From Nocardia sp. NBC_00565 (GTDB lineage: Bacteria; Actinomycetota; Actinomycetes; Mycobacteriales; Mycobacteriaceae), in assembly GCF_036345915.1 (NCBI RefSeq), contig NZ_CP107785.1, forward strand, positions 9,176,001 through 9,240,000: a stretch of 64,000 nucleotides of DNA, read 5' to 3'. Below the pieces are notes generated by a model that saw only the letters and a program-made list of their open reading frames with translations, did not search any database and was not told the DNA's origin. Of this stretch, positions 44,418 through 47,056 are shown in pieces; position 1 is the first letter of the stretch, and each line of letters starts with the position of its first letter. Both the position numbers and the translations under genes were made by a program.

Positions 44418-44921
44418 TCAGCTACGGCCATCCGGAGCCGACGCTCGGCGTTCGGTCGACCGCGCCCGAATCGCGGCCGCGACTTCCTCCACCGCCTGCC
44501 GTACGATCGCGGCGTAGGCGTCCTCGCCGAGGGTGTCCGAACAGGCACGGGCCGAATCGATCTCACGCTGAGCGGCCTCGAAAGAACTCAGCCGCCGATA
44601 GTTGTCGGCGAGGTTCAGGTGTAGCGACGGGTAGAACCCGCGAACGTCGATCCCCGGCGAGTACCGCTGTGCGCGGTCGTTCGAGAGTGAGTCCGCGGCA
44701 TCCAGCGCTCGGATATCCCAGGCGAGCGCCTGCGCCGCATCGTCATACAGATCGGCCAAATAATGTGCCAATGTGCACCGATGCAGCGGATCACCTTGCG
44801 GCCCAATAGATTTCCAGATCGCCAACAGCGCATCCCGTGCCGCGGCCGCAGACCCTGCGCGTCCGAGCTCGACCGCGCGAGTGATAGCGGCCATCGTCTC
44901 GTCCGAGGTAGAGCCGGTCAT
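44418..44921 (-). CDS. TPR-like helical protein, partner of the MerR-clamp fusion
   Basis: A 167-residue all-helical protein whose pattern suggests tetratricopeptide-like repeats: AITRAVELGRAGSAAAARDA, LAHYLADLYDDAAQALAWDI, LHLNLADNYRRLSSFEAAQR. No enzyme motif is seen. The ATG overlaps the stop of the MerR gene (ATGA), so both proteins are made together. An interaction between the two is a reasonable inference. Confidence 0.75.
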   Translation of the reverse strand: MTGSTSDETMAAITRAVELGRAGSAAAARDALLAIWKSIGPQGDPLHRCTLAHYLADLYDDAAQALAWDIRALDAADSLSNDRAQRYSPGIDVRGFYPSLHLNLADNYRRLSSFEAAQREIDSARACSDTLGEDAYAAIVRQAVEEVAAAIRARSTERRASAPDGRS

Positions 44922-45937
44922 GAACTGTGCTCCTTCGTATCAACCATGGCTGTCGGCATGACGAGCGTGGTGAGATCCCCATCGGTCGCCGACCGAACGA
45001 CAACGGGCTGATCCGGCCCGGCGATATCGAGCATGATCTCCGGCCCCACCGACCCGACGAGCGCGGGTCGCAATGTGGCGGACGAAAAGGCAAGTGCGAC
45101 AGCCGATCCGGTCACTCGCGCCGGGAGCCGCGCACCCGGACCGGCCGCGACCCCGGTCTGATCGATCGAGCAGGCGAGCACCGCGTCGCCCTCGAAGGCA
45201 TCGAGCAGCAAGTCTCGCGCCATCACAACCCGCGTCCGAACCGGTGCCAGGCCCGTCAACACAGTCCGATAGTTCGGAAATACCTCGTCTATCGTGCGGC
45301 ACCGCCGCTCCACGCCTCCGCCCGCAAGCATCAGCGCGCCAGCGCCGGGCTCGACCTCCACCTCATGAACCTCACGCAGCCACGAACTCACTTCCCCGAG
45401 CCCGCCCGCGTCGACAACCACCGACCACTCGGGACCTGCCCGCACCGGCACCACACTCCGTGTCGACAACCGATACCGATCTGTCGCGGTCAACGTCACC
45501 GCCCCCGCGGCCGCCTCCACTAAAACCCCACCGAGCACCGGTATTTCACCCCCGACAGCCGCCGCGACCCGCACCTGCTCGACCGCCTCCGCAAATACCG
45601 CCCCCGAAAGCACAACGCGCCCTCCGAGCACCTGCCGCACCGCCCGCGCGACCACCGCCGCCTCCCGAGCCCGCGCCTCCAACTCCACCACATGCGCATC
45701 GAGCAACCGCCTCGCCCGATCGGTATCACCCGACAAGATCTCCGAAATCACCTCGAGCGACACCCCGATCCCCCGCAGCCGCCGGATCAACACCGCCCGA
45801 TCACCCTGCGCCGGGCGGTAATACCGATACCCGGTCACTTCATCGACGCGAGCCGGAACCAACAGCCCGCAATCGTCATAGAACCGCAGCGCACTGGGGG
45901 TGAGCCCACACGCCCGCGCCAACACCCCGATCGTCAT
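44918..45937 (-). CDS. MerR-family regulator fused to a DNA-clamp-like domain
   Basis: A 339-residue protein. Residues 1-70 are a MerR helix-turn-helix (TIGVLARACGLTPSALRFYD, GYRYYRPAQGDRAVLIRRLR), followed by a dimerising helix. The C-terminal 220 residues resemble the sliding clamp DnaN: AVTLTATDRYRLSTRS (DnaN has a matching ATDRFRLA segment), CRTIDEVFPNYRTVL and a final LVMPTAMVD, where DnaN ends with LVMPVRL. A GTG eight codons upstream is an alternative start. The clamp domain probably acts as a sensor or assembly surface rather than in replication. Confidence 0.8.
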   Translation of the reverse strand: MTIGVLARACGLTPSALRFYDDCGLLVPARVDEVTGYRYYRPAQGDRAVLIRRLRGIGVSLEVISEILSGDTDRARRLLDAHVVELEARAREAAVVARAVRQVLGGRVVLSGAVFAEAVEQVRVAAAVGGEIPVLGGVLVEAAAGAVTLTATDRYRLSTRSVVPVRAGPEWSVVVDAGGLGEVSSWLREVHEVEVEPGAGALMLAGGGVERRCRTIDEVFPNYRTVLTGLAPVRTRVVMARDLLLDAFEGDAVLACSIDQTGVAAGPGARLPARVTGSAVALAFSSATLRPALVGSVGPEIMLDIAGPDQPVVVRSATDGDLTTLVMPTAMVDTKEHSS

Positions 45938-46021
45938 CAACTCACCATCGAAACCTGTCACCAGGCCATCATGGAGCCTCAGGTAACTCGAAGGTCAACA
46001 CCGCGATCGCGCGGACCTCGC

Positions 46022-47056
46022 TCAGGACCGATGGACAGGTCCGTGGGATTCGGCGCAGTGCAGGTCGGCGCTGTGAGCGTCGGCGTCGGCGCTGTGGTCG
46101 ACCTGCAATGTGGTGTGTTCCAAGGCGAATTCGTCGTGCAGGGTGGTTTCGATGTTGGAGCGGACCGCGTGGCAGTCGGCGTTGTCGTCGACGAGGACGT
46201 GGGCCGATAGCGACGGCTGGCCGGAGGTGATCTGCCAGACGTGCAGGTCGTGGACCTCGGCCACCTGGGGGATCATGACGATGCGGGCGCCGATGGTGTC
46301 GGGGTTCAGATGCGCGGGCGCGGCTTCGAGGAAGATGCGGCCGGATTCGCGGACCAGATTCCAACCGGCCTTGGCCATCAGGGCGGCGACGACCAGTGCG
46401 GCGATGGCGTCGGCGCGGGCGAAACCGGCGAGCCAGACGACCGCGCCCGCGATGGCGGTGCCGATGAAGGCGTAGAGGTCGTTGAGGATGTGCTGGAAGG
46501 CGCCTTCGACGTTCAGGCTGGTGCGGTTCGCGCGGCTGATGCTCCAGGCGGCGGCGATATTGACGACGATGCCGAGCAGTGCGGTGACCAGCACGAGCGG
46601 GCCGGAGACGTCCGGGGGATGGATGAGGCGCTTGATGCCTTCGTAGGTGAACCAGGCCGAAAGCAGCAGCAGTGTAATGCCGTTGGCTTGCGCGGACAGG
46701 ATTTCCGCGCGCTTGAAGCCGTAGGTGTATTGGCCTTGCGCTGGGCGTTTGGCGAGGCGGATCGCGATCAGGGCCAGGACGATGGATGCGGCGTCGGTGA
46801 GCATATGCGCGGCATCGGAGATCAGGGCCAGCGAGTGGGCGAGGATGCCGACGGTGACCTCGGCCGCCATGAACACCACGATCAGGCCGAGCGCGATGGT
46901 CAGCCAGCGGGGGTCGGAGTCCGCGGACACGCCGTGGTCGTGATTGTGCGCATGTCCGCCGCCGGTGCCGTGATCATGGGAGTGGTCGTGGTCGGCTGCG
47001 GCCGGCGGAACGGTCGGCTGCGCCGATTTGCTCGACGGCACGCACTGATCTCCCAT
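46022..47056 (-). CDS. Cation diffusion facilitator (CzcD/ZitB-like metal exporter)
   Basis: A 344-residue membrane protein that exports Zn2+, Cd2+ or Co2+ in exchange for protons. A His-rich N-terminus (DHDHSHDHGTGGGHAHNHDH) binds metal. Six helices follow, with the metal-site motifs ISDAAHMLTDAASI (helix II) and FQHILNDLYAFIGT (helix V), both with the HxxxD spacing. A cytoplasmic domain (VAEVHDLHVWQITSGQPSLS) and a second His/Asp-rich tail complete it. A long palindrome lies 55 bp before the start. Confidence 0.93.
   Translation of the reverse strand: MGDQCVPSSKSAQPTVPPAAADHDHSHDHGTGGGHAHNHDHGVSADSDPRWLTIALGLIVVFMAAEVTVGILAHSLALISDAAHMLTDAASIVLALIAIRLAKRPAQGQYTYGFKRAEILSAQANGITLLLLSAWFTYEGIKRLIHPPDVSGPLVLVTALLGIVVNIAAAWSISRANRTSLNVEGAFQHILNDLYAFIGTAIAGAVVWLAGFARADAIAALVVAALMAKAGWNLVRESGRIFLEAAPAHLNPDTIGARIVMIPQVAEVHDLHVWQITSGQPSLSAHVLVDDNADCHAVRSNIETTLHDEFALEHTTLQVDHSADADAHSADLHCAESHGPVHRS

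Follow-up and report, generated by a model that had tools for sequence, protein, structure and literature searches.

MerR-family regulators with large effector domains, among them BrlR, BmrR, TipA, and EcmrR, carry GyrI-like or TipAS drug-binding domains as effectors, and other MerR activators reshape promoters with a 19-bp spacer. We know of no transcription factor that has a piece of the replication clamp as its sensor, and no paper on a MerR-clamp fusion was found in the open-licence PMC literature. The clamp itself, DnaN, has a docking site with two parts. As set out in passages of a review (PMC11139829; E. coli numbers here and below), subsite I comprises R152, L155, T172, G174, H175, R176, L177, P242, R246, V247, V360, and M362, and subsite II comprises H175, N320, Y323, V344, M362, P363, M364, and R365. 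Passages of a second paper report that ImuB requires the clamp and is displaced by griselimycin, itself a clamp binder (PMC10421592). In a third paper, the MerR-like and sliding-clamp genes are separate phage genes (PMC11373665).

The window analysed here, a 64,000-nucleotide stretch from Nocardia sp. NBC_00565, is part of that strain's complete 9.71-Mb genome (G000). It contains a gene pair (Table 1), of which the upstream member had been described in a first-pass annotation as a MerR regulator fused to a DnaN-like domain. That description is borne out: the open reading frame (ORF) is present, and its product matches Pfam MerR_1 (E=1.9e-16; 60.4 bits against a cut-off of 21.6) and DNA_pol3_beta_2 (E=1.2e-11; residues 119-230 of 347). 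By sequence, the helix-turn-helix (HTH) and the helix that follows it are like those of the MerR regulators with large effector domains; here, however, the effector is a clamp fold and not a drug-binding domain. The predicted structure aligns with domains II and III of the DnaN clamp (1.9 Å over 223 residues), in agreement with the clamp fold first proposed for the carboxyl-terminal part. Thus, according to the model, the effector half is a two-domain clamp piece. The protein has the testable features of a MerR regulator and is not a three-domain clamp: the structure comparison aligned domains II and III only, and without domain I a closed ring on DNA is unlikely. A further difference from DnaN is the stretch corresponding to E. 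coli residues 290-306, which ranges from 0 to 76 residues across MerR-clamp members. The strain's own DnaN gene lies elsewhere in the genome, near recF- and gyrase-like ORFs.

Table 1. Features of the merR-clamp locus, in window coordinates. Model and pocket residue numbers follow the 346-residue translation without the initiator.
Feature	Coordinates	Strand	Basis
MerR-type operator/promoter: -35 TTGACC (45998-45993), 19-bp spacer, -10 CATGAT (45973-45968)	45968..45998	(-)	Conserved in 81/81
merR-clamp gene, 347 aa, GTG start	44918..45961	(-)	ORF and Pfam; start probable, from promoter position and frame
MerR HTH domain, residues 9-77	45728..45934	(-)	Pfam MerR_1 and structure model
Long helix, residues 79-110, presumed dimerisation coiled coil	45629..45724	(-)	Secondary structure of the model
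Clamp domain II-like, about residues 112-235	45254..45625	(-)	
Clamp domain III-like, about residues 236-339, with pocket residues MP at its end	44942..45253	(-)	Structure comparison and alignment
TPR-fold partner gene, 167 aa, ATG start	44418..44921	(-)	ORF, gene-pair conservation, and structure prediction

Three stretches singled out earlier as clamp-like, ATDRYRLS, EVFPNYRTVL, and the terminal LVMP, include residues of the peptide-docking subsite I or lie next to them. For analysis of the pocket, 81 members were cut to 53 at 75% identity (one alignment row, L038, has no ALRFY anchor and was trimmed at a different offset). Judged by the residue lists in the cited passages (PMC11139829), nine of the 12 subsite I positions are nearly invariant: L155, T172, L177, P242, and M362, as well as P363 of subsite II, are retained in all 53 members; position 174 is R in all 53, as in the strain's own DnaN; position 175 is Y and R176 is R in 52 each; and V360 has become L in 49. 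Residues R152, R246, and V247 are variable. Over the 12 columns of subsite I, entropy averages 0.61 bits, compared with 1.86 across the full set of aligned columns, and none of 20000 random draws was as low, the columns being drawn from the whole alignment, fold core included. Subsite II, with a mean of 1.26 bits and a draw frequency of 0.05, is largely not retained: N320 and Y323 are lost, and R365 is present in 21 of the 53 members. The portion of the pocket that receives a clamp motif's hydrophobic end is therefore retained, unlike most of the Gln pocket. Part of the subsite I conservation may serve the fold itself. Moreover, given the loss of subsite II and the variability of R152, R246, and V247, classic clamp motifs may bind the regulator differently.

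The promoter is conserved throughout. TTGACC, a 19-bp spacer, and a -10 element lie upstream of all 81 members (80 loci and the window); the sites were located by searching upstream stretches for TTGAC[CT], which fixed the first five letters, and positions 5, 7, 8, 19, 26, and 30 are identical in all 81 beyond the letters so fixed. We take this promoter to be of the MerR type, in which a 19-bp spacer likewise accompanies a dyad. At locus L087 the operator consists of a 13-bp inverted repeat centred on a single base; symmetry is weaker in the window. The first ATG or GTG lies 6 or 7 nt past the -10 element in 79 of the 81 (this codon is in frame in 80), so the merR-clamp mRNA is probably leaderless. 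By the same reasoning the window gene probably starts at GTG 45961, and ATG 45937, eight codons downstream and originally taken as the start, is probably internal.

Searches for the operator elsewhere point to a narrow circuit. The window operator occurs in its own genome as a single exact copy, the sole match at up to two mismatches; at up to three, one extra site appears, with three mismatches, before a pair of ORFs, one of them another MerR gene. At up to one mismatch, 13 of the 81 family genomes have a match, one each, and all 13 precede a MerR-clamp ORF (recognized by a partial match in L127, positions 4-245 of 355, and a split one in L124). Class-wide, 18 of 345 genomes have one match each: 13 before MerR-clamp (split over two frames in L199), three before a MerR-PP2C fusion (L200, L205, and L210), and two (L206 and L211) before neither. 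The regulator thus looks dedicated to its own operon, since the operator is restricted mostly to MerR-clamp genes, with a single close match in most of the genomes that have any; a search of this kind would miss weaker operators. (The MerR-PP2C fusions have a related HTH and nearly the same operator, but their sensor is a protein phosphatase 2C domain and not a clamp, as though, within this lineage of MerR proteins, entire enzymes or clamps were exchanged for one another as the sensor.)

The partner ATG overlaps the merR-clamp stop by four bases in the window's ORF list, and a TPR fold is predicted for its product, so that the helical, TPR-like gene of the first description stands. The window protein has no Pfam match, TPR included; sub-threshold Pfam TPR matches occur in its relatives. 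The pair is conserved as well: among 80 regulator loci spanning 16 genus labels, the TPR gene comes directly after the regulator on the same strand in 64, and 16 are without a neighbouring TPR gene. In Prauserella, a detached TPR gene has its own operator; none was found at the detached TPR gene of genome G486. One genome (G633; L225 / L203) encodes MerR-clamp and TPR fused in a single ORF of 533 aa. Inspection of the TPR protein by eye revealed no conserved clamp-docking motif.

Among ORFs of at least 90 aa in the 80 loci and an 18-kb part of the window, only MerR-clamp (16 genera) and TPR (11 genera) recur in more than six genera; the next most recurrent family, in six, is an antisense ORF over the merR-clamp gene itself. 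A CDF cation-efflux gene (46022-47056; PF01545), on the same strand just upstream of merR-clamp, was rejected as a member of the unit, not being a conserved neighbour of the pair. In sampled genomes of the phylum, the TPR family is present in 19 of 296 and MerR-clamp in eight of 296.

Paralogues of the TPR gene lie beside repair genes. In 15 of 20 Nocardia paralogue loci (L177-L191; the 20 chosen from a match list), TPR directly precedes dnaE2 on the same strand with a gap of 19-147 nt (about 73 nt in L187 and 19 nt in L190, measured from the first tblastn pieces), and imuB falls inside the fetched stretch in 11 of the 15. The other five have no repair neighbour. The window strain's own paralogue (L115:5853-6326; G000:C1, about 8.946 Mb) lies in the imuA'-imuB-dnaE2 region, with the order TPR then dnaE2 kept and other ORFs in between. 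By eye, that interval (L115:6327-9757) contains cytochrome-P450-like and transposase-like ORFs. An exact GAACN4GTTC box stands 34 bases before the dnaE2 start of this genome.

All 16 dnaE2-linked TPR upstream regions, own genome included, contain a LexA-like box within two mismatches of TCGAAC-N4-GTTCGA, 15 of them with one; the corresponding counts are 0/5 for the other paralogue, 1/81 for merR-clamp, and 3/630 for shuffles. The commonest box, TCGAACATATGTGCGA, also fits the Streptomyces LexA motif, tCGAAC-N4-GNNCGa, as printed in part of a published study (PMC9380542). It is possible that the TPR paralogue in the Nocardia imuA'-imuB-dnaE2 region is an unrecognised member of the mutasome operon. 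The window pair, in contrast, lies elsewhere in the genome, and no LexA box was found at its promoter; 80 of the 81 merR-clamp upstream regions have at least three mismatches, and L071 has none. SOS control of the window operon was rejected on this ground.

Other associations are scattered. Eight loci of genus g7 (L094, L095, L097, L098, L100, L101, L106, and L109) have TPR downstream of a uracil-DNA-glycosylase-like ORF, and NCBIfam agrees with the ung identity for the one locus tested. Eight Rhodococcus/Rhodococcoides loci, all without TPR, have the regulator within 1.7-4.3 kb of imuA'-imuB; imuA'-imuB was found near the regulator in none of the remaining loci of the 80. The ung adjacency and the imuA'B adjacency may each represent one inherited event. 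Elsewhere, TPR has in one case a glutathione-peroxidase-like and in another an SCP2 neighbour, with no repair gene there. A TPR homologue at L117:7886-8425 begins right after a UvrD/PcrA-like helicase ORF, which is in turn preceded by another large ORF of helicase type. The suggestion that the locus might link transcription to DNA damage or replication state therefore has support of an indirect kind, from the retained pocket, the paralogues at dnaE2 and ung, and the eight loci near imuA'-imuB; the lack of a LexA box at the window operon speaks against it.

The mechanism that we favour is a switch responding to a hydrophobic ligand of the clamp-docking kind; a protein motif and a natural product would both use subsite I. 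The whole reading, tentative and at somewhat under an even chance, is of a one-component MerR switch that senses occupancy of, or competition for, clamp docking sites, with the TPR protein as output. The regulator would dimerise through its long helix, and a hydrophobic clamp-docking motif would bind its subsite I. Candidate ligands are a free clamp-binding protein (ImuB, or a polymerase tail) and a natural product occupying that pocket. Binding would then reshape the 19-bp-spaced promoter and turn the operon on. The TPR protein would be a peptide-binding adaptor acting with the clamp or with repair proteins: that it is the output is suggested by its place in the operon, by the operator at the detached Prauserella gene, and by the fusion in one ORF, whereas a role in damage tolerance is suggested only by where its paralogues are placed. 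Such a switch would report docking-site occupancy or competition, that is, replication stress or damage tolerance. Counting against this reading are the loci and genomes without TPR, the G486 gene with no operator, the pocket positions that are not retained, the missing LexA box at the window operon, and the paralogue loci with no repair neighbour. Because ImuB needs the clamp and is displaced by griselimycin, according to the passages cited above (PMC10421592), either type of ligand would report clamp access. A bolder version is doubtful, although worth stating: the regulator would gauge, through its captured docking pocket, the amount of free clamp-binding motif in the cell and answer with the TPR adaptor of an undescribed actinobacterial clamp-associated damage-tolerance system, to which the dnaE2- and ung-linked paralogues would also belong.

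The clamp piece might instead be a fold reused with no link to replication, a generic module for a hydrophobic ligand or partner, perhaps with the TPR protein as bound co-regulator, its pocket kept for that purpose or for stability. The large loss of subsite II speaks for this reading, and own-operon regulation and the natural TPR fusion would suit a regulator-partner pair; nevertheless, this reading is unlikely, because most of subsite I consists of true-clamp residues over 53 dissimilar members and because TPR paralogues adjoin dnaE2 and ung. It is improbable that the pocket mimics a drug target, detecting griselimycin-type clamp-targeting natural products in the way that drugs are detected by other members of the MerR family: neither a pump nor a modifying enzyme nor an extra DnaN gene is conserved beside the regulator, and the own genome is without a second close operator. 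In favour of a drug sensor, griselimycin does bind the clamp and displace ImuB (passages of PMC10421592), and natural-product-bound mycobacterial clamps rank among the best structural matches to the regulator model. Finally, the regulator might itself be the effector, acting as a decoy for the clamp that ties up clamp-binding proteins and controls no gene but its own. This would suit the nine of 14 searched genomes (among those without a neighbouring TPR gene) that have no TPR homologue anywhere, any operator found there fronting merR-clamp, but is very improbable given that 64 of the 80 loci have a TPR gene directly after the regulator.

An anti-phage role was rejected, as PADLOC reported no more than a weak match of the HTH to mad1. 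A mobile-element origin was likewise rejected: no near-full-length copy was found in phages, and the relatives on plasmids (H1-H4; coverage 76-96%) comprise one record that covers at least 80% of the query and three others at 76%, all from Streptomyces or Kitasatospora.

Among the best 120 of 777 proteins at E <= 0.001 (8000 scored), the closest named relatives are from Nocardia. Labels among the matches listed include 'MerR family transcriptional regulator' and 'DNA polymerase III subunit beta family protein', so the fusion is already catalogued in sequence databases. With the pocket retained and the operator single, a purified protein and a promoter would suffice for testing the regulator. 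If the pocket works, clamp occupancy could be read directly from the regulator, antibiotics that target the clamp would have a natural reporter, and there would be a way into the TPR family located in the dnaE2 mutasome locus of Nocardia.
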